A stretch of DNA of 64,000 nucleotides from Paenibacillus sp. BIC5C1. GTDB taxonomy: Bacteria > Bacillota > Bacilli > Paenibacillales > Paenibacillaceae. Position numbers and translations under genes: made by a program. The DNA is taken from the NCBI RefSeq assembly GCF_032399705.1, contig NZ_CP135922.1, positions 5,146,001-5,210,000 on the forward strand. Reading direction: 5' to 3'. A model generated the notes under the pieces. The model ran no database searches. It was not told the DNA's origin and saw only the letters and a program-made list of their open reading frames with translations. The first letter of the stretch is position 1, and each line of letters opens with the position of its first letter. Of the stretch, positions 18,182-59,033 are shown one piece after another.

Positions 18182-18491
18182 AAACCTCAGCATCCCGTAG
18201 CGTTTGCAGCGCTAGGGACGAGAGGTTGAATTCCCGTGGTACCACCCTAGTTAGCGGACGATCGTGCTTCGTCATCCACTCCCTTTGGACCTGTAACGGC
18301 GGTTAACCGATGCGGATTTCCATTCCTGAACTGAGTGTTACTTCAGTCGGTTGCAAGATGGTGTAGTCACCGCATTTCTCCAAGGCGAGTTCGTGAAATA
18401 CTGTCAACCGACTTGCACCAACCGTCGGCTCTCTGTCATGTACAGGACTCACTACTGATCCTTATCATCGAAATATGTATACGATATGATC
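18182..18491 (-). promoter_or_regulatory. T-box riboswitch leader of leuS
   Basis: Minus strand, from the promoter start near 18491 to the terminator at 18182. The T-box sequence AGGGTGGTACCACGG is at about 18235-18250. It is followed by a terminator stem (CCTCTCGTCCCTAGCG / CGCTACGGGATGCTGAGG) and a run of seven Ts. Stem I contains GAA-CTC-GCC, where CTC would be the leucine specifier codon. Uncharged tRNA-Leu should stabilise the antiterminator and permit leuS transcription. Confidence 0.92.
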
Positions 18492-49816: not shown

Positions 49817-50062
49817 ATTGTAGTTCTCCATTTCTGAGCCGTATTGAATCCATTCTCTCAGACTCTATGAAAACATTGTATCGGAGTTAGGGGCGTGAGT
49901 TCAAATAAAATGATTAATTCTCTCCGCTTCAGGAAGAACAAGCAAAATAAAAAATTCGATCCATACCTATAACGCAAGAAAATAGTATAGACGTTATCCG
50001 AAGCAGATGCCCGAATAACGCCTTGCATAAATTTGTTTCATATAGTTCTCTTAAAAGTCTGT

Positions 50063-51655
50063 CTAACACTCCCCTGCCAGTTCCGCATCTGTCCAATGAA
50101 GCTGAACACCCTGGCGAATCAGCTGTGCCTGATAGGCACGAAGATGTTCCGTCGAAGCCCTCACCTCTGAGGGCTCTACTTGTTGTGCAATGGCATAAGC
50201 GGCAAGGGTGCCGGCAGCCTCGCCAATATTCCATTCGGTGGGATGCAGACGGTAACAACCGTTCGCAATCTGGGTCATGGAGATATTTTTGCAAGCCGGA
50301 AGCAAGTTCTTGACTCGCACCGGGATGAGTGCACCCAGCGGAATTTCATAGGGATGGTTCGGTATATAAAAAGTCCGCTGGCTCACGGTTGTTGGATGGA
50401 GATCCAGATGATAACTGCCGACACCCACACTATCCTCGTAACATTTGACTCCCTCTACTCCGCGCAATTCCTTGCTCACATCATGCTCGGTAATGGTATA
50501 TACGCCTCGGATTCGCCGTGATTCCCGAATATACGGTGCTTTGGCGAGACCGTCTTCCGTACCGAGCACATCTCCACGCAGCCTTACGCCCGGATAACCC
50601 TTTCCGCCGTCCAGGCGGGGAGCTGCCGTCTGAAGCCAGTATACTAAGGAAAGAGTTAGTTGCCTCGCCGCTTCCAGATGCCGCTCGCGTTCCTCCCGCG
50701 ATACGCCAATGATCGGCCCGGCGTAATAATCGTTCAGTGCCCAGTTGAGCAGCGTGACTTCACCATCATTCAGTGACTCTGTCCATATAGTCGGGTCAAC
50801 GATCCGCCGATAATCCCACAGGGAGGTTATGCCCTGATCATTCGGGAACATCGTGAACTCTTTCAGCTTGGAGGTATCATTGGCATCCGAAGCGTACCAG
50901 CTCAGAATCGGATACAGTGAGAACGTGGGCACATACTGACGCCAGTAATCATAATCCCTCGGACGAGGGATCGTGAAGTCTCCACCCGCTACATAATCTA
51001 CTGCAGCGACATGGGTAATCGACTGCATGTCTAGCGGGTCCGCTTCATCCAGGGCATGTGGTTCACCCGTTTCCCGCCGAGATTCCGCTCCACTTACATG
51101 CTCTACTCTGGCGAGGGGAAGCAGGTCGCTGCATTCTGTGGCATCCAGATAATAGGCACCCCGGAGCTTAATCAATTCCCCACTTCGCTCTTCACATACA
51201 GTCACGCCAGTCACCCGGTCACCTGCTGTCTCTACATGAACTGGCACGGTATGATAGAGCACCTCGATCCGACCGGTATTCACGTATGGCGCAAGCATCT
51301 CATGTAAAACAGCAAGCGCGACCTTCGGCTCATGCGCCAAGCGGCTCACCCAGCCATTACCGGGGTTAAGAACAGGATCCTTCTTGGCGACATCCGTAAG
51401 CGGGTAGTTCCGTCTGTAGTAATCTCTGACCCGGCTGCGGAACTCACGGTACGAAGCTGTACTACCAGATTGTTCAATCCAGCGATGCTCATCCGGCGGT
51501 ACTGCCTGTGAGGTCAATTGACCGCCAAGCCAGTCCGTCTCTTCCGTCAAAAGTACCCGTAGCCCTGCCTTGGCTGCAGCCAGCGCAGCTGCAGTCCCGC
51601 CAAGACCACCGCCAATAATGACGATATCACTGTGTTTCTCCTGTTCAATCCCCAT
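50063..51655 (-). CDS. FAD-dependent oxidoreductase of the amino-sugar operon
   Basis: 530 residues from the ATG at 51655 (GGGAGGAG upstream). N-terminal FAD-binding motif IVIIGGGLGGTAAALAAAKAG with LLTEETDWLGGQLT, typical of the FAD_oxidored (PF12831) group; the C-terminal FAD-contact is AAGTLAAYAI. Overlaps the ROK gene by 11 bases, so it is the last gene of the operon. Proteins of this group often lie in glycan clusters with unknown substrates; oxidation of a sugar hydroxyl is a reasonable guess. Confidence 0.85.
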   Translation of the reverse strand: MGIEQEKHSDIVIIGGGLGGTAAALAAAKAGLRVLLTEETDWLGGQLTSQAVPPDEHRWIEQSGSTASYREFRSRVRDYYRRNYPLTDVAKKDPVLNPGNGWVSRLAHEPKVALAVLHEMLAPYVNTGRIEVLYHTVPVHVETAGDRVTGVTVCEERSGELIKLRGAYYLDATECSDLLPLARVEHVSGAESRRETGEPHALDEADPLDMQSITHVAAVDYVAGGDFTIPRPRDYDYWRQYVPTFSLYPILSWYASDANDTSKLKEFTMFPNDQGITSLWDYRRIVDPTIWTESLNDGEVTLLNWALNDYYAGPIIGVSREERERHLEAARQLTLSLVYWLQTAAPRLDGGKGYPGVRLRGDVLGTEDGLAKAPYIRESRRIRGVYTITEHDVSKELRGVEGVKCYEDSVGVGSYHLDLHPTTVSQRTFYIPNHPYEIPLGALIPVRVKNLLPACKNISMTQIANGCYRLHPTEWNIGEAAGTLAAYAIAQQVEPSEVRASTEHLRAYQAQLIRQGVQLHWTDAELAGEC

Positions 51656-52598
51656 GGGTTGTCTCCTCCCTGTCAATGCCTTCAGACCAACCAATGCCGT
51701 TCTCACGCAGGCGTTCCAAGGCCAGCTGCGCCGCCCCGAAACAGCCTGCCCAGTTACCGAGTTCAGCCACTGCAACCCGGTCTGCCAATCCGACACTGTA
51801 TAACCTAGCGGTAAGCATCGGCCACCACATAGCCTGGTCTTGGGTCACACCGCCACCAAGAATCATCAATTCCGGATCTATCGAGGCAGAAATATTCGCA
51901 ATAACCAAGGCCAAATCAGATATGTAACGCTCCAGAATGTTCAACGCTATTGCTTCTCCCTGGCTTGCAGCGGCCATAATCTCCCGGCCGTGAGTATGCG
52001 TGTTGCCCTTCTGTTCCCGCGCCAGCCGCATCAGTGCACTACCGGAAATGTATTGCTCCACGCAGCCGCGTTTGCCACAATTGCAAGGTAGACCGTCAGG
52101 CACTAGCACACTGTGCCCCCAGTCCCCACCGCGCCAGTCTCCTCCCCGTAACATCCTGCCACATGCCATATTGGCCCCACCAACCCCAGTTCCGAGTGTC
52201 AGCATAACCAGGTTCTGCTTACCACGGCCGATACCAAGCCACGCCTCGCCGAGCAGTGCAGCATTGGCGTCGTTATCGGCAGTTGAAGGCAGGCCAAATT
52301 CCGCTGTTGCCCATTGTGTTAGTGGCATTCCCTGCCAGCCAGGTAAATTGTTCGTTGCGTGAATCACTGCACCCGTCTCCACATTCACCCTTCCTGCCGA
52401 GGCAATACCCAGGGCCTTCACTTCTTCACAGCTAGACAACAGTTCACTTACTAACCCGTGAAGTTGGCCAAGTATAGCCTTTCGGCCCAACCGGGCCTCG
52501 GTTGCACATGTAGCTTCTACCAGAACGACTCCTGCTTCATTGACCACAAGCCCTTTAATGCCTGTGCCTCCTACATCCACGCCAATGACCTGCGGCAT
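51645..52598 (-). CDS. ROK-family sugar kinase, probable ManNAc kinase
   Basis: 317 residues; GGGGGAAAG before the ATG. ATP motif GVDVGGTGIKGLVV, catalytic region TADNDANAALLGE, zinc motif CNCGKRGCVEQYISG with the family's cysteines. No N-terminal helix-turn-helix, so an enzyme and not a repressor. Next to nanE, the likely reaction is ManNAc to ManNAc-6-P; glucokinase or another hexose kinase activity is the alternative. Confidence 0.85.
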   Translation of the reverse strand: MPQVIGVDVGGTGIKGLVVNEAGVVLVEATCATEARLGRKAILGQLHGLVSELLSSCEEVKALGIASAGRVNVETGAVIHATNNLPGWQGMPLTQWATAEFGLPSTADNDANAALLGEAWLGIGRGKQNLVMLTLGTGVGGANMACGRMLRGGDWRGGDWGHSVLVPDGLPCNCGKRGCVEQYISGSALMRLAREQKGNTHTHGREIMAAASQGEAIALNILERYISDLALVIANISASIDPELMILGGGVTQDQAMWWPMLTARLYSVGLADRVAVAELGNWAGCFGAAQLALERLRENGIGWSEGIDREETTHGD

Positions 52599-52626
52599 CT
52601 GCTTTCCCCCTATTCACACAAACCCT

Positions 52627-53454
52627 TCAATAAATACGGTCGATAACCGCCCTGGCCGTTAATTCCTTCATCTTTTTAGTCTCTTCGCCATGCTCGCGCT
52701 CCAGTCCCTGGCAGAGTAAGTCGATAATAAACAGCTGAGAGATTTTAGCTCCTACAGAACCGCCTTCAAGGGGAGACTCCTTCCCCGCGGTCAAGAGCAA
52801 GATATCTGCAATAGAAGCAATGGGGGATTTGGCATAGTTCGTCATGGCAATCACCTTAGCCCCGTTTTGTTTGGCCTTCATCAACATATCGTTGGTATCC
52901 AGCGTACTGCCGGACACGCTGATGCCAAAAGCCACGTCACCTTCTCCCATCGTTACCGCCATCATGGACTGAATATGGCTGTCTGAATTCGCTTCCGCAC
53001 GCCGCCCGATACGCAAAAATCGGTTCTTGGCATCCATAGCGGTAATGCCTGACGAGCCCACGCCGAAGAATTGCACATGTCGTGCGCTGTCCAGAGACTT
53101 TACTGCCTCTTCCAACTGGCTGCGATCCAGCATACCCAAGCTGGATTGCAGCACACCCACCATCGATGCATATAAATGGTCGGCGTAATCGTCCTTTCCC
53201 TGCTCGCCGTCTGGCTGGTTCTGCCGTTTCGGCAGTCCTTGGGCCAGCATCAGCTTGAAATCCTGATAGCCTTTAAACCCGATTTTACGGCAGAATCTCA
53301 TCACCGTAGTCTCTCCGGTACCAGCAAAATCAGCCAGCTCAGTCACAGAAAAATAGATGATATTATCCGGATTGTCCCGTACGCACCTGGCCACCTTCTG
53401 CTCCGACTTGGTCATGGAAGGATAATACGTATTAATTCGGTCATTCATCTCCAT
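52627..53454 (-). CDS. MurR/RpiR-family transcriptional regulator
   Basis: 275 residues. N-terminal HTH_6 domain (SMTKSEQKVARCVRDNP...LADFAGTGETTVMRFCRKIGFKGYQDFK) and C-terminal SIS sugar-phosphate domain (FFGVGSSGITAMDAKNR; AFGISVSGSTLDTNDML). Overlaps nanE by 14 bases. Probably senses an amino-sugar phosphate such as ManNAc-6-P and controls this operon. Confidence 0.92.
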   Translation of the reverse strand: MEMNDRINTYYPSMTKSEQKVARCVRDNPDNIIYFSVTELADFAGTGETTVMRFCRKIGFKGYQDFKLMLAQGLPKRQNQPDGEQGKDDYADHLYASMVGVLQSSLGMLDRSQLEEAVKSLDSARHVQFFGVGSSGITAMDAKNRFLRIGRRAEANSDSHIQSMMAVTMGEGDVAFGISVSGSTLDTNDMLMKAKQNGAKVIAMTNYAKSPIASIADILLLTAGKESPLEGGSVGAKISQLFIIDLLCQGLEREHGEETKKMKELTARAVIDRIY

Positions 53455-54157
53455 TACTCTTCATCCTCGCTTTTCTGGTCACTGCTGCGAACTGTCGGGT
53501 AATTAGCTGTGGCCGAGTTATTGCGGAGCCCACCACAACAGCGTATGCCCCCAGATCAAGCGCCTCTTCTACCTGAGAGGGTTTACTAATCCGCCCTTCG
53601 GCAATGACCGGAATCTTCAACCGCTGTGCGGACATCCCCAGCAGCTCCAAATTCGGCCCTTCCTGCTGCCGGGAATACGGTGTATAACCCGATAGGGTAG
53701 TCGAAACACAACTGACTCCAAGCGACTCAGCATATAAAGCTTCCTCCAGAATGGAGATGTCTGCCATGGAAACCACCCCATTGGCGTTCAGATAGGCGGT
53801 GATTTGCTCCAATGTATGATTTTTCGGCCTGCTCTGGCGGGTCGCATCAAATGCAATGATATCCGCTCCGGCCTCCAGCAGCTCGTCAATTTCTCTGATG
53901 GTTGGGGTGATATATACAGCAGAATCCGGGTAATTGCGCTTTATGATGCCAATAACCGGCAATGAGACTGTCTGCTTGATCGCACGCACATCTGCTGCCC
54001 CATTCGCCCGAATACCCGCGGCCCCTCCTTCCTCCGCAGCCGCCGCCATACGGGCCATCATCGCCGCGCCATGCAGCGGTTCATCAGACAGCGCCTGGCA
54101 AGAAACAATCAGCCCCAAATGCAGTTTCTCCAGCACTACCTTTGTCAGGGTTCTCAC
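53441..54157 (-). CDS. nanE: N-acetylmannosamine-6-phosphate 2-epimerase
   Basis: 238 residues. TIM-barrel motifs: LIVSCQALSDEPLHGA, GIRANGAADVRAI, GIIKRNYPDSAVYITPT, IIAFDATRQSRP, IAEGRISKPSQVEEAL and VVGSAITRP. Converts ManNAc-6-P to GlcNAc-6-P. The start is taken at a GTG close to AGAGAGAGG; a second GTG seven codons in is possible. Lies eight bases after DUF4127. Confidence 0.94.
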   Translation of the reverse strand: MRTLTKVVLEKLHLGLIVSCQALSDEPLHGAAMMARMAAAAEEGGAAGIRANGAADVRAIKQTVSLPVIGIIKRNYPDSAVYITPTIREIDELLEAGADIIAFDATRQSRPKNHTLEQITAYLNANGVVSMADISILEEALYAESLGVSCVSTTLSGYTPYSRQQEGPNLELLGMSAQRLKIPVIAEGRISKPSQVEEALDLGAYAVVVGSAITRPQLITRQFAAVTRKARMKSNGDE

Positions 54158-54165
54158 CCTCTCTC

Positions 54166-55719
54166 TTATATTCTGCTTTCCTTACTAGGGTTGGATGGTA
54201 CGAATCGTACAGACAGGCCCACTTCGAACATCCGGTTCCATGGCATGTAACAATCAGTAATCTGTATACTCCCTGCTTCAGTATCGATCCGCACAGCAAG
54301 CTCTTGACGCAGCCTCTTCTCTACTCGGGCGGCAACAAGGCCGCGAGGCCCATCCAGCAAGTACTTGCCATAACCCATCTCCTGCACCGGGCCATTGCTA
54401 AGTTCTCCCCGAACGACCGAACAATAGCAGACATCCTCGGCATAGCGGAGGGCGAGGAAATCAAGATGCGACTGTGTAGGACCATAGAGCAGATAGATCA
54501 TCGCCTGCGAAATAACGGTGCCAAGTGAGTTGGAACTGGTATTCCAGGCGGCATATCCAGCCAGATCAAATAACATGCCTTTTTGTCGCAGCATCTTGAC
54601 CAGCTTCTGATCCCCACCATTGGCATATCCCACATCCGCTACAGCCACCGGCTTCTCCTTGCTCCTGAGCAGAAAGTGTCCGTATTCCACCAGTTCCATC
54701 AAATTTCGGTATACATCATAGCTGTAAAAAGAATGCTGCTGCGACACCGCTTCCGCCATCGTCTCTCCAGGTGTACTAATCAACAGCACCAGATCTGCTT
54801 CAGTCTCACTGGACGCAATCAACCCACCTGCAGCCAAAATCTGATATTTGAGCGTCTCATAGAAAAATCGATCCTCGAATAGCGGGGTAACAAACGCCCC
54901 CTGAACAGATGATAATCGTGGGTACACCAGCGGCATCCGGCCGCGAGCCTTATTCATCATTCTGGAGAGCAATACGCAACCAACTTCGTCCGCACCAGGA
55001 TACATGTAGACTTCAAGTTCCAGATCAAGGGTGGTAATCCGGGCTCGCACTTTCTCCTGATCCTTGGCTGTATGTCCATAAGGCGCTGAATCATCCTGCG
55101 GCACAATCATGAAGTCGATAATGCCTTCCTGGATCAGAACCAGCACTTGCTTGTTAGCTTCAATATTTACGGCCCTGCGTCCCAGGTAATCTTCCAGCAC
55201 TTCCATTGGTAGACGATTATCGATATCGGCCAGCTCGCGGATCTCCTCATCCGTCGCAATTCCGAGCTCCAGCCGATGGCTGATGAAACCTTTGCGAAAA
55301 ATCTCTCTTCCCCAGTCGGCGTAGTAATCCGGCTCCTCATCGGACAGGGAATATTGCGGGCAGCGCATAATCAGTTGGAACGTATACAGGGTTAGCTGCG
55401 GGTACTGTTGCTTGATCCCCCGAAGGCGCTCCAGACGGGCCGTCAGTTCATCTGGCTTCAACTGATGCAGCCGGGAAGGAATAATCCCGCCATAGAGCAA
55501 CGTATCCAAAGCAACGATTGCTCCATCTGCCCTTGCACAGCTCTCCTCAAACCAGGTCCATAACTGTTCTACATCGCCCGGACGTTTTTTCAGACCCATG
55601 ATTTCAAGTGGGGGACGCTCCACTGTGAATTCCGTTCCCTGTGCCAACAAATAAGGAAATTCATAATTGCAAGGCCGTTCATCTAACGGAACAAAGGTTA
55701 GCTTATACTGCTTCGGCAT
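54166..55719 (-). CDS. DUF4127 family protein
   Basis: 517 residues from the ATG at 55719 (AAAGGGTGAACGC upstream). N-terminus LTFVPLDERPCNYEFPYLLA and internal ALDTLLYGGIIPSRLH, IVPQDDSAPYGHTAKDQ, YPGADEVGCVLLSRM and VADVGYANGGDQ are the conserved parts of the family. Soluble and without signal peptide, hence cytoplasmic. No reaction is established. The strict colocation with nanE and a sugar importer suggests a role in processing an imported amino sugar or glycoside. Confidence 0.88.
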   Translation of the reverse strand: MPKQYKLTFVPLDERPCNYEFPYLLAQGTEFTVERPPLEIMGLKKRPGDVEQLWTWFEESCARADGAIVALDTLLYGGIIPSRLHQLKPDELTARLERLRGIKQQYPQLTLYTFQLIMRCPQYSLSDEEPDYYADWGREIFRKGFISHRLELGIATDEEIRELADIDNRLPMEVLEDYLGRRAVNIEANKQVLVLIQEGIIDFMIVPQDDSAPYGHTAKDQEKVRARITTLDLELEVYMYPGADEVGCVLLSRMMNKARGRMPLVYPRLSSVQGAFVTPLFEDRFFYETLKYQILAAGGLIASSETEADLVLLISTPGETMAEAVSQQHSFYSYDVYRNLMELVEYGHFLLRSKEKPVAVADVGYANGGDQKLVKMLRQKGMLFDLAGYAAWNTSSNSLGTVISQAMIYLLYGPTQSHLDFLALRYAEDVCYCSVVRGELSNGPVQEMGYGKYLLDGPRGLVAARVEKRLRQELAVRIDTEAGSIQITDCYMPWNRMFEVGLSVRFVPSNPSKESRI

Positions 55720-55746
55720 GAATGCGTTCACCCTTTCTGTGTTTTT

Positions 55747-56595
55747 TTATCCTTTAATCGCTCCGGCAATGCCTTCCATATAGTATTTTTGGGTGAAAAG
55801 GAACACGATGATAATCGGCAGCACCGAGATCATGGTGCCGGCGGCAATCCAGCCGAAGTTATACGAGAACTGACCGTTCAGATACGTCAGGGCCGCAGCC
55901 AATGGATATTTCTGCGGATCATCCAGCACCACAATCGGCCACAGGAAATTGTTCCAGAATGCCATGACTTCAAGCAAGCCAATGACGGCAACCCCTGGTT
56001 TCACCAGTGGCATGACAAGTTGCACGAAGATACGGAACTCGGAGGCTCCATCCATTTTGCCAGAATCCCGAATATCTGTCGGTATGCCCAGAAACGTTTG
56101 TCGCATCAGAAAGATGTTAAATACCGACACCGCGGCCGGAAGCACAACCCCAAGAAACGTATTGCCCAAGTGAAAGGCCTGAATCGTTAAATAATGCACA
56201 ATCATCGCCGTTGCCGAAGGAATAATCATGGTCGAGATCAGCAGCGTGAACACCAGATTCCGTCCCTTGAACCGAAAGGTTGCGAGTGGATACGCCGTGA
56301 GGCAGGAAAGGAAGATGTTAAACACTACCCCAAGGAGCGTAATCACCACCGTATTTATGATGTAGCGTGGAAAATCCATGAACTCCCACACCTGCACGTA
56401 GTTATCGAAAGCGATGAAGGTAGGTAGAATGGCTGGTGGATTCGCGAACACATTACGGCCAGGCATCAGCGATACGCTGAGCAGCCACAGAAAAGGACCC
56501 ATCATAAACAGGGCAAGCAAAATCAACAGTACATAAATGATCAAATGACGAAGGACTTTTTTCATTTTTTTGGACGAAAACGCACTCCGAATCAA
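55747..56595 (-). CDS. Sugar ABC transporter permease (MalG type)
   Basis: 282 residues; the TTG start overlaps the TGA of the preceding permease (TATTGA), with GGCGGGGTG upstream. Six membrane helices; EAA loop DIRDSGKMDGASEFRIFVQLVMPLV. Confidence 0.94.
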   Translation of the reverse strand: MIRSAFSSKKMKKVLRHLIIYVLLILLALFMMGPFLWLLSVSLMPGRNVFANPPAILPTFIAFDNYVQVWEFMDFPRYIINTVVITLLGVVFNIFLSCLTAYPLATFRFKGRNLVFTLLISTMIIPSATAMIVHYLTIQAFHLGNTFLGVVLPAAVSVFNIFLMRQTFLGIPTDIRDSGKMDGASEFRIFVQLVMPLVKPGVAVIGLLEVMAFWNNFLWPIVVLDDPQKYPLAAALTYLNGQFSYNFGWIAAGTMISVLPIIIVFLFTQKYYMEGIAGAIKG

Positions 56596-57473
56596 TAGGT
56601 ATTCACCCCGCCTCTCCGGTTCAGCCGGAACACCAGCACACTGAGCGCAGCTACCATCACACTGACGATCAGCCCAAGCGCCGAGGCATACCCGAAATTG
56701 AATTGCTCCAGCCCTTTTTGGAAAATGTATACGCTTGAGGTCAGCGTGGACGTTCCCGGCCCGCCTTTGGTGAGAATATAGACCTCATCAAAAACACGAA
56801 CGGCACCCATCACCGAAATTACGGTGCAAAAGAGAATATGTGGCCGCAGCAGCGGAAGCGTCACATGAATAATCAGTCTCAGTGGTCCAGCTCCATCCAC
56901 TCTGGCGGCTTCATATAGATCTGCCGGAATTCCCTGAAGCCCGGCCAGATAGAGCATCATATAATAGCCGAGACCCTTCCACATGGTGATGAACATCAGC
57001 ACATACAGCGCCGTACTGCTCGTGGAAAGCCAGGAGATCTGCTCACTAAGAATGCCAACCTTCAGCAGCAGGTAATTGACCACGCCGTTATTGCCCAACA
57101 ACCAGCTCCAAATCAGTGCCACCGCGACCATGGAAGTTACAACCGGTATGTAGTAGGCAGCCCTGAACATTTTGACACCCGGAATCCGGCTGTTAACCAG
57201 AATGGCCATGAGGATCGAGATGATTTGAATCACCGGCACAACCAGCACATACACCAGCGAATTCCACAGCGAAATCAGGAAATTGTGATCTTGAAAGGCC
57301 CGGGTAAAGTTATCCAAACCAACGAAATGTGTCTCCGTAATGACAGAATAATCGGTTAATGAGAGGGGTATCCCGTAAATAATCGGCCAAAAGGTGAAAA
57401 CCGCCAGAAACAACAATCCCGGTGCCATAAACGCCCATGCAGCAAAAGATTCGGATCGAATCGCCTTGTACAC
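56592..57473 (-). CDS. Sugar ABC transporter permease (MalF type)
   Basis: 293 residues from a GTG with AGGAGG. Six membrane helices; EAA loop LYEAARVDGAGPLRLIIHVTLPLL. Pairs with the MalG-type permease. Confidence 0.95.
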   Translation of the reverse strand: MYKAIRSESFAAWAFMAPGLLFLAVFTFWPIIYGIPLSLTDYSVITETHFVGLDNFTRAFQDHNFLISLWNSLVYVLVVPVIQIISILMAILVNSRIPGVKMFRAAYYIPVVTSMVAVALIWSWLLGNNGVVNYLLLKVGILSEQISWLSTSSTALYVLMFITMWKGLGYYMMLYLAGLQGIPADLYEAARVDGAGPLRLIIHVTLPLLRPHILFCTVISVMGAVRVFDEVYILTKGGPGTSTLTSSVYIFQKGLEQFNFGYASALGLIVSVMVAALSVLVFRLNRRGGVNTY

Positions 57474-57499
57474 GGCTACGCCTCCTCTCTTCTAGGATC

Positions 57500-57519
57500 G
57501 AGGGGGAGTACTCCCCCTC
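57500..57519 (-). repeat. 20-bp perfect palindrome between binding-protein and permease genes
   Basis: GAGGGGGAGTACTCCCCCTC, 21 bases after the binding-protein stop codon, without a T-run. It should form a very stable RNA hairpin that protects the binding-protein message and lowers permease expression, as seen in other ABC operons. Confidence 0.75.
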
Positions 57520-57540
57520 ATTAGACTGTATCGCATAAGT

Positions 57541-58854
57541 TCAGGAATCCTGGTTAAGAATTTGGTTAACTTCCTTCTCCACTGCGTTCAGCGTTTCTTT
57601 AATATCTGCTCCGTTCATCAAAATCTCCTGCAAGCCCCGTGCCAATGCGGAGTTGATATCTCCTGCATTCGGTACGCCGACCATGTAATCAGTGGCTTTA
57701 TCGAGACTTTGTGAGGAGGCTACCTTGGCTTCGGCTTCCAGCGATCCGTCGGATTGAGTAAAGAACGGATCTTCAATGGAGGCTTTGCTCGACGGCAGCG
57801 TATTGGCTACTTTGGAGAAGGCAGTCTGGTTCTCTGCATTGGTCATAAAGGCGGCAAATTCCACCGCTTGCTCAGGGTTTTTGGATTTCTGTGGCACAAC
57901 GAGATCCATGGAATTGGAGAGCCGCAGGTTCGCTTTGCCCGTTGGGAGCGTTACCGCAATCGTATTCTTGTAAACATCCGGTGCAGACTTCTTGATGAAG
58001 TTGATAAAGGTTGGACCCGACAATTGGAAAGCGACCTGCTCCCCGGAAAAATACTGGATCTGCTTGCTGAATTCCGCATCCTCCTTCAGCACTACGCCTT
58101 CGGCCATCAGATCACGCATTTGAGCGATCATCGCCTCTGCTACCGGCGTATTGAAAGCCGCGGCCGTTTTGTCTTCATTTAGAATGGGGATGCCGTCGAT
58201 TGGAAACAGCTTGGAGACAAGCTGCTGCGCATAACCGGCCACTCCGGTCTTTTCATGGACCTGACGGGCCCACTCCACGAGTTCCTCTCGGGTCTGCGGC
58301 GGATTTGAAGGATCAAGGCCTGCCTCCTTCACCAGCTTGGTATTCATGAACAACACTTCCGTACCTGTGTACCAAGGAAGCGCGTAAGCTTTGCCATCCA
58401 AAACAGTCGAATTATAAATGCCTTCAAAGTAACTCTTCGCTTCCTCATCTGTCAGGTATTCATTCAGATTCAGCAGCGCTCCCTTACTTCCCAATTGACT
58501 GGCAAATTCGGTATTGAGGTTCACAACATCAGGGCTTTTGCCACTGGCCGTACTGGTCAATAAACGCTGTGAAATGGCATCATATGGATAGTCCTTCCAC
58601 TCGACTTTCACGCCAGGATGACTGCTCTCATACTTGGCAATCAATTCATTGAAATAATCGTTGAACGTTGGCTGTAAAGCAATCGTCCAAAATTCCAGCG
58701 TCACCGGCTTTCCAGCTTCCGTACCCGTCTCCCCAGTGCTTCCCGGACTCGGCGTACCAGCCGTATTGTCATTTCCTCCGCAGGCGGCAAGCAGCATAGA
58801 CATCATAACGACTAGCAGCAAAGATACTGTGAAGCCCTTTCTGTTGGTGGTCAC
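57541..58854 (-). CDS. Amino-sugar ABC transporter substrate-binding lipoprotein
   Basis: 437 residues from a GTG behind GGGGGAATGTTGT. Lipobox MLLAACGG; a Gly/Thr/Ser-rich linker; family 1 binding-protein fold (YESSHPGVKVEWKDYPYDA, GKSPDVVNLNTEFASQLGSKG, ALPWYTGTEVLFMNTKL). First gene of the operon. No ATPase is encoded with it. Confidence 0.92.
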   Translation of the reverse strand: MTTNRKGFTVSLLLVVMMSMLLAACGGNDNTAGTPSPGSTGETGTEAGKPVTLEFWTIALQPTFNDYFNELIAKYESSHPGVKVEWKDYPYDAISQRLLTSTASGKSPDVVNLNTEFASQLGSKGALLNLNEYLTDEEAKSYFEGIYNSTVLDGKAYALPWYTGTEVLFMNTKLVKEAGLDPSNPPQTREELVEWARQVHEKTGVAGYAQQLVSKLFPIDGIPILNEDKTAAAFNTPVAEAMIAQMRDLMAEGVVLKEDAEFSKQIQYFSGEQVAFQLSGPTFINFIKKSAPDVYKNTIAVTLPTGKANLRLSNSMDLVVPQKSKNPEQAVEFAAFMTNAENQTAFSKVANTLPSSKASIEDPFFTQSDGSLEAEAKVASSQSLDKATDYMVGVPNAGDINSALARGLQEILMNGADIKETLNAVEKEVNQILNQDS

Positions 58855-58920: not shown

Positions 58921-58941
58921 ACTCCATCTTTCCAATGGAGT
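58921..58941. promoter_or_regulatory. Inverted repeat upstream of the amino-sugar operon
   Basis: ACTCCAT and ATGGAGT arms, seven bases apart, about 67 bases before the operon's first gene. Could be the operator for the RpiR-type regulator encoded in the operon. A second small palindrome, GAAGTATTCTTC, lies at about 58966. No clear -35/-10 pair was found. Confidence 0.4.
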
Positions 58942-59033
58942 ATATGCAGGCCCTGGAGTTAGAATGAAGTATTCTTCCAGAAATAAATAAAAAAAAGAAA
59001 TAATTTTTCTTTTAGGCTAAAAAACACAAAAAA

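Follow-up and report, generated by a model that had tools for sequence, protein, structure and literature searches.

A 64,000-nucleotide stretch of Paenibacillus sp. BIC5C1 (contig NZ_CP135922.1, positions 5,146,001 to 5,210,000 of the forward strand), referred to here as the window, carries on its minus strand an operon of eight open reading frames (ORFs) running from 58854 to 50063. In order, these encode a solute-binding protein, two permeases, a DUF4127 protein, NanE, an RpiR-type regulator, a ROK kinase and a flavin adenine dinucleotide (FAD)-dependent oxidoreductase. With a likelihood placed a little short of even, the operon constitutes a dedicated, self-regulated route for a beta-linked oligosaccharide of N-acetylmannosamine (ManNAc), in which the DUF4127 protein (54166..55731, minus strand) would release ManNAc for conversion via NanE (53441..54157, minus strand) to N-acetylglucosamine 6-phosphate (GlcNAc-6-P). 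A nanE gene is commonly interpreted as evidence that sialic acid is used; in this operon it would instead signal a separate, as yet unnamed route, the sialic acid genes of the same genome being grouped in another cluster. Should DUF4127 indeed free ManNAc from beta-linked disaccharides, a reaction could be assigned to an uncharacterised protein family with members in Bacillota, Deinococcota and a bin labelled cyanobacterial, and it would become possible to test what happens to the ManNAc of teichoic acid linkage units and of the polymers that anchor S-layers.

This proposal is drawn mainly from comparison of the ATP-binding cassette (ABC) version of the cluster with phosphotransferase system (PTS) versions found on plasmids of Priestia, Carnobacterium and Enterococcus faecalis (L208, L209 and L210, respectively; the Priestia and Enterococcus records are typed as mobilizable). 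On the Carnobacterium plasmid the gene order is NanE, a Cof-type HAD hydrolase, DUF4127, PTS IIC and RpiR, and on the E. faecalis plasmid it is PTS IIA, NanE, HAD, DUF4127 and IIC with a divergent RpiR gene; annotation or BLAST with chosen queries recognised no flavoprotein, ROK, GH84, GH20C or GHL10 gene in either stretch. The Priestia plasmid carries two ROK genes, an acetylxylan esterase, DUF4127, manA, PTS IIC, NanE and RpiR, again with no flavoprotein recognised in the stretch. Among solved structures, the IIC of the Carnobacterium plasmid matches 3qnq (E 3.4e-64), a cellobiose-type IIC that is the chitobiose transporter ChbC, and the matches to the IIA of the E. faecalis plasmid are IIA chains for cellobiose and N,N'-diacetylchitobiose. 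PTS of the cellobiose/chitobiose type deliver 6-phosphorylated beta-linked disaccharides. DUF4127 appears the best candidate in the PTS cluster to split the imported sugar, since it is the sole gene there without another assignment that could open it, and NanE is present, suggesting therefore that ManNAc-6-P comes out of the cleavage. In the ABC version, which has the ROK kinase in addition, the same cleavage would act on a sugar that carries no phosphate. With few enzymes between transporter and NanE, the small plasmid version provides a clean test case.

Association of DUF4127 with NanE was observed in many genomes. The DUF4127 protein of the window matches PF13552 with 534.1 bits (cut-off 27) over positions 2-488 of 489, and NanE matches PF04131 and NCBIfam PRK01130.1 (300.5 bits, cut-off 189). 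A pattern scan of a named genome collection, which favours close relatives, gave 49 DUF4127-relative loci that are not independent and of which some are truncated by contig ends. On the DUF4127 strand within the fetched flank, the solute-binding protein and both permeases were present in 44 of the 49, the FAD gene in 41, NanE in 38, RpiR in 37 and ROK in 30. NanE and the FAD gene occurred together in 36, upholding the expectation, put forward in an earlier sequence-only reading of the operon, that DUF4127 and the flavoprotein travel with nanE in other genomes. The closest named DUF4127 relatives are Paenibacillus taichungensis records, 97% and 96% identical. A DUF4127 at least 52% identical to that of the window was found in 63 of 295 Paenibacillaceae genomes, and DUF4127 of some kind in 63 of 398 genomes of a Bacillota-wide sample. 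In a midpoint-rooted DUF4127 tree of 79 rows, with NanE labels taken from a simple ORF caller, 42 of the 43 NanE-linked rows fell within one group of 58 (support 98/95); the remaining one (L148) lies outside this group on a long branch, and NanE-less rows of close relatives nest inside it. The ORF caller missed NanE in L042 and L077, in both of which it is found by tblastn. NanE was present somewhere in 24 of 25 hand-picked genomes, the exception (G087) carrying the flavoprotein; in six of the 25, belonging to genus g7, the only NanE lies a long way from DUF4127. Amino acids shared by at least 85% of 22 distant DUF4127 sequences include D17, R19, S86, R87, R123, D213, D214, D248, D366, N397, T398, N401, D433 and R500, and to judge from the alignment these widely conserved positions look like an active site.

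Some DUF4127 loci differ in gene structure. In a Ruminococcaceae bin two tandem DUF4127 genes (L075, 3132-6240) lie beside an HD-domain gene and NanE. A ROK kinase fused to RpiR occurs inside the cluster at L081 (8300-9985), with both domains evident from Pfam, and a ROK match in a 566-amino-acid frame of another cluster (L138, 11330-13030) is presumably a similar fusion to judge from its length. DUF4127 matches in G236, G157, G202, G283 and others were flagged with one internal stop, possibly due to the alignment overrunning a shorter protein.

The remainder of the genome (7.08 Mb, a single contig) is consistent with a ManNAc source other than sialic acid. A separate cluster at 4.18 Mb contains a sialidase, a NanA-like lyase (242.5 bits for N-acetylneuraminate lyase, below the cut-off of 281, and 128.6 for DapA), a solute-binding protein, two permeases, NanE and ROK. 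Because this sialidase, NanA-like and NanE cluster sits elsewhere, the operon NanE probably serves another ManNAc source; sialic acid as the most likely start of the pathway was rejected on this ground, and the earlier claim that the pathway does not begin with free sialic acid is probably right. That claim had been argued from absence of NanA, NagA and NagB. The absence applies to the operon, among the eight genes of which Pfam detected no NanA lyase, but not to the genome, which outside the operon encodes two nagA genes and one nagB gene above cut-off as well as the below-cut-off NanA-like lyase; with both encoded elsewhere, missing NagA and NagB are uninformative and were discarded as a clue to the substrate. 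Three NanE genes are present in all: that of the operon, that of the sialidase cluster and a third adjoining an RpiR gene and a PTS IIBC gene that scores best as glucose-specific. The operon NanE aligns with both other copies. A second, distant DUF4127 gene is also present in this genome at approximately 1.40 Mb (L162, 7496-9349; 617 amino acids, 23% identical over part); two of its neighbours were compared with protein families, giving a matrixin-like match for the first and no match for the other. A distant DUF4127 match of this kind is found in many Paenibacillus genomes of the 295-genome set.

Genes added to the cluster in related bacteria hint at the type of sugar involved. In 13 of the 49 loci an extra gene (cluster c7) lies between permease and DUF4127, and the member tested (L041) is a GH84 beta-N-acetylglucosaminidase. 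Eight GH84 proteins from DUF4127 loci (six from c7, two clostridial) have an APKDD site and start without an obvious signal peptide. A PF07555 search of the window's genome alone was accompanied by controls that did not give a match; when rerun over 33 genomes chosen for operon-type DUF4127, GH84 was detected in 17, in every one of which a copy adjoins DUF4127, and three of which have a second full copy elsewhere. Bacillus, Psychrobacillus and Cytobacillus clusters gain genes that in L067 represent GHL10, an esterase and GH20C, the last being a hexosaminidase neighbour in a Psychrobacillus. Two clostridial loci (L136 and L137) share the order RpiR-ROK-SBP-permeases-GHL10-FAD-GNAT-DUF4127-GH84 (SBP, solute-binding protein), with NanE preceding RpiR in L136 and the L137 stretch starting at RpiR; here GH84 was identified with PF07555 in both, GNAT and FAD with Pfam in L137, and GHL10 solely through BLAST similarity. 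GHL10 is the domain family of Cwp19, described as a peptidoglycan lytic transglycosylase (PMC6016235). In another phylum, a Deinococcus plasmid is annotated with a divergent nagZ followed by a solute-binding protein, a GH20-type protein, permeases, FAD and DUF4127, in a stretch without NanE.

These neighbours suggest as substrate a small beta-linked oligosaccharide containing ManNAc, most plausibly together with N-acetylglucosamine (GlcNAc). Candidate sources are a fragment of the Paenibacillus ManNAc-GlcNAc secondary wall polymer or the ManNAc-GlcNAc linkage unit of teichoic acid, and a ManNAc glycoside from a cell-wall polymer, one of the starting points offered by the sequence-only reading, is thus also the best guess here. 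In P. alvei and P. polymyxa the wall polymer is built from ManNAc-(1-4)-GlcNAc repeats, which are pyruvylated in P. polymyxa (PMC6801904). The ABC importer would take the oligosaccharide in intact and DUF4127 would cut it in the cytoplasm, yielding ManNAc, or ManNAc-6-P from a 6-phosphodisaccharide in the PTS versions. The ROK kinase would convert ManNAc to ManNAc-6-P and NanE would convert this to GlcNAc-6-P for NagA and NagB, encoded elsewhere, the roles of NanE, NagA and NagB being those of established families. The RpiR regulator would bind a palindrome 5' of the first gene, with ManNAc-6-P or GlcNAc-6-P as its probable effector, consistent with the established sensing role of SIS domains. 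The flavoprotein may contribute an accessory redox reaction that acts either on the sugar as imported or on its other half. GH84 and GH20 enzymes cleave beta-linked N-acetylhexosamines with assistance of the 2-acetamido group (PMC6499197). In beta-ManNAc the 2-acetamido group and the leaving group would share one face, which would probably call for another mechanism, and an alternating polymer would be well served by a hexosaminidase paired with a new enzyme. A broader proposal, which is somewhat unlikely as a whole, is that DUF4127 constitutes the first family of enzymes that cleave beta-N-acetylmannosaminides (6-phospho in PTS operons), with the operon representing widespread ManNAc-GlcNAc wall salvage and PF12831 oxidation employed where the bond resists 2-acetamido-assisted hydrolysis. 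Neither DUF4127 nor PF13552 is named in any paper of the open-access literature searched, a scope outside which preprints and most subscription papers fall, and the same literature contains no paper naming an "N-acetylmannosaminidase".

A number of observations weigh against release of ManNAc by DUF4127. NanE is not on the DUF4127 strand in 11 of the 49 loci, one of these being a contig of less than 5 kb, and sequence searches of the PDB produced no credible solved relative of DUF4127. Distant members occur in unrelated contexts, beside alpha-glucan genes in L143 and SLH, PHP and D-Ala carboxypeptidase genes in L151, and because of these different contexts the family reaction is not tied to ManNAc everywhere and the shared chemistry must be broader. 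With regard to kinase specificity, the operon ROK protein scores 116 bits against the NCBIfam NanK equivalog (cut-off 450), reaching the ROK family level only. GH84 was not found in the window's genome or in 15 others of the 33 searched. The PTS versions were seen as 15-20 kb stretches, in which most unlabelled E. faecalis ORFs were compared with chosen queries only, and the cells in question could have, outside these stretches, a gene for a phospho-glycosidase that opens the sugar. In another Bacillota genome (L139) a GH38 alpha-mannosidase adjoins the DUF4127-NanE cluster and could point to other glycans, and the cell-wall origin of the substrate is an inference from neighbouring genes to a polymer.

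The flavoprotein is common, but not universal, in DUF4127 loci, and its presence raises an alternative, considered unlikely, in which it oxidises a hydroxyl (such as that at C3) of an aminosugar glycoside and DUF4127 then eliminates the glycosidic bond. In at least 58 of the 63 Paenibacillaceae genomes whose DUF4127 reaches 52% identity, the FAD gene is on the same strand and no more than 10 kb away, the clostridial operons have in the same place a flavoprotein of a different PF12831 subfamily, 25% identical to that of the window, and the FAD and DUF4127 genes overlap on the Deinococcus plasmid, all of which are consistent with such a two-step reaction, as is the poor fit of beta-ManNAc, judged from its stereochemistry, to the 2-acetamido-assisted GH84/GH20 mechanism. 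Two reports provide a precedent in flavin or NAD 3-oxidases acting with eliminases on C- and O-glucosides (PMC10628242, PMC10646112). These 3-keto-glycoside systems resemble the operon in that a redox flavoprotein adjoins an uncharacterised enzyme among sugar genes, but differ in that the flavoprotein here is PF12831 rather than GMC. The eliminases of 3-keto-glycoside systems are generally of the TIM-barrel PF01261 kind, to which DUF4127 has no Pfam match; neither protein belongs by Pfam to the families of known 3-keto systems, with no GMC-type or Gfo/Idh oxidase and no TIM-barrel eliminase. The Carnobacterium, Enterococcus and Priestia clusters also count against this alternative, and since no flavoprotein was recognised in the fetched stretches of these DUF4127-NanE versions, oxidation is probably not a universal requirement. 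Furthermore, among the flavoprotein matches listed (103 rows, 96 genomes), 20 of the 96 genomes lack any DUF4127 that reaches 36% identity, and of 46 rows with distant DUF4127 (36-44%) at least 10 have a FAD gene within 10 kb, at least four of them on the same strand. FAD and DUF4127 as an obligatory pair is weakened both by the PTS clusters and by the FAD genomes without DUF4127. The sequence-only reading had cast the two as candidate opening enzymes, which stands better for DUF4127 as the cleavage candidate than for an inseparable pair.

Cleavage by DUF4127 was also weighed against three further explanations. A reaction in which DUF4127 leaves the glycosidic bond intact and strips or modifies a pyruvate ketal, acyl or lactyl substituent of a ManNAc sugar ahead of NanE would account for the esterases (AXE1 and Esterase family) and GNAT enzyme in cluster variants, and wall ManNAc in Paenibacillus is 4,6-pyruvylated (PMC6801904). 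This is distinctly unlikely in view of the PTS clusters, where there is no other recognised sugar-opening enzyme, unless a monosaccharide enters or another locus supplies one. Import of free ManNAc, another N-acetylhexosamine or an oxidised derivative, with the FAD protein and DUF4127 acting on the derivative, is very improbable: NanE and ROK kinase indeed need only ManNAc, but relatives have GH84, GH20C and NagZ-type neighbours and disaccharide-type transporters, and the genome already has a NanE beside a PTS gene, albeit one best scored as glucose-specific. The GH38 gene of L139 would fit a glycan of outside origin, for example a piece of a host N-glycan, in place of a bacterial wall polymer. 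This is the least probable of the explanations considered, since GHL10, SLH and wall-related neighbours point to the wall and N-glycans are not known to contain ManNAc.

Compared with characterised systems, the operon shares with nan operons NanE, a ROK kinase, an RpiR-type regulator, a sugar ABC importer and GlcNAc-6-P as end product, but lacks NanA and sialidase, has DUF4127 and a PF12831 flavoprotein, and occurs in a genome with a nan-like cluster elsewhere. With ChbBCA and NagZ/MurQ-type chitobiose or wall recycling it would share import of a beta-linked aminosugar disaccharide, with hexosaminidase present in variants, RpiR/MurR-type control and, in plasmid versions, a PTS of the cellobiose/chitobiose kind. 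It differs in that the product goes via NanE, implying ManNAc, and in that the proposed cleaving enzyme belongs to an uncharacterised family.

The earlier description of eight tightly packed genes of these families, with their gaps and overlaps, was borne out by the ORF list, Pfam and NCBIfam. The first gene (57541..58854, minus strand, as are all others of the operon) encodes a lipoprotein solute-binding protein of a CUT1-type sugar importer (PF01547, 150 bits; lipobox-like LLAACGG), for which the best-scoring solved chains on PDB sequence comparison were 6wpm and Lin1841 5ysb. After a 67-nt gap follow permease A (56592..57473; PF00528, UgpA-like below cut-off) and permease B (55747..56595; PF00528), overlapping by 4 nt. 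By Pfam the importer thus has the CUT1 composition of a binding protein with two BPD_transp_1 permeases, and there is no ATPase gene among the eight; CUT1 importers usually use a shared ATPase of the MsmX kind. Gaps of 15 and 8 nt separate permease B from DUF4127 and DUF4127 from NanE, respectively. NanE overlaps by 14 nt the gene for a MurR/RpiR-type regulator with a SIS domain (52627..53454; PF01418 and PF01380), and a 28-nt gap precedes the ROK sugar kinase (51645..52598; PF00480), for which ManNAc is the proposed substrate. The kinase contains the zinc motif CNCGKRGCVE and has GDWGH in place of the ExGH motif; its solved relatives are glucokinases and ManNAc kinases. The last gene (50063..51655) encodes the FAD-dependent oxidoreductase (PF12831, 362.6 bits, cut-off 27; GGGLGG dinucleotide motif). 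Its start is more likely the ATG at 51655 (530 amino acids, 11-nt overlap with ROK) than the GTG at 51796, and several relatives start at the matching place. A terminator-like hairpin lies 3' of this gene (49989..50023, minus strand) and a second on the same strand at 59070-59035; terminator-type hairpins in the region, nine against 8.3 in shuffled sequence, are not above expectation.

An alignment of 11 upstream regions revealed a conserved palindrome, AAAGAAA-N5-TTTCTTT (58994..59012, minus strand), which a general palindrome scan had missed and which is likely the operator predicted for RpiR, together with a possible -10 hexamer TATACT (58939..58944, minus strand) conserved in the same alignment and not listed by a consensus scan. 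The core AAAGAAARANNATTYC was exact in 27 of 30 RpiR-bearing Paenibacillaceae-type loci, the others having one mismatch, two mismatches and no site, respectively. It was exact in none of eight RpiR-less loci (one with a single mismatch) and in none of five Bacillus-type loci with a 42-43% identical RpiR. All 27 exact matches are upstream of the solute-binding protein gene in RpiR-bearing operons, and no other was found in 4.53 Mb (both strands, loci L033 and later); the pattern was derived from such upstream regions, so that its presence there, but not its absence elsewhere, is partly by construction. These data, an RpiR gene with a conserved palindrome that is absent without RpiR, point to an RpiR-regulated operon. 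A search of the 7.08-Mb genome gave a single copy of the full palindrome and seven further sites with one mismatch, equal to the seven of a reversed-pattern control. A wider RpiR regulon was rejected on these counts, and because the full palindrome occurs only once RpiR probably controls this operon alone.

In PDB sequence searches solved chains match only the N-terminal part of the flavoprotein and no useful relative was obtained for its catalytic part; flavoproteins of the window's subfamily were found in 11 of 398 genomes of the Bacillota-wide sample at E 1e-60. Twenty loci around flavoproteins away from operon-type DUF4127 were fetched, one of which (L183) has a 35% identical DUF4127. The 81 neighbours chosen there included nine sugar-binding proteins, five GHL10, five SLH and two NanE, an observation rather than an enrichment given that they were picked non-randomly and some labels were already known. 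Two of the GHL10 neighbours are SLH-bearing enzymes of more than 1570 amino acids (L188, 3290-8005; L190, 9993-14714). Plasmid flavoproteins 48-55% identical to that of the window (H12-H23; 12 of 68 records) come from Rhizobium, Streptomyces, Deinococcus, Allomeiothermus and others, and four Rhizobium plasmid rows among these 12 overlap a LacI regulator gene. A search against a defence-system library gave no match, and the sole Rfam match in the window at the gathering threshold was a T-box leader RNA at 18211-18477 on the minus strand (112.9 bits).

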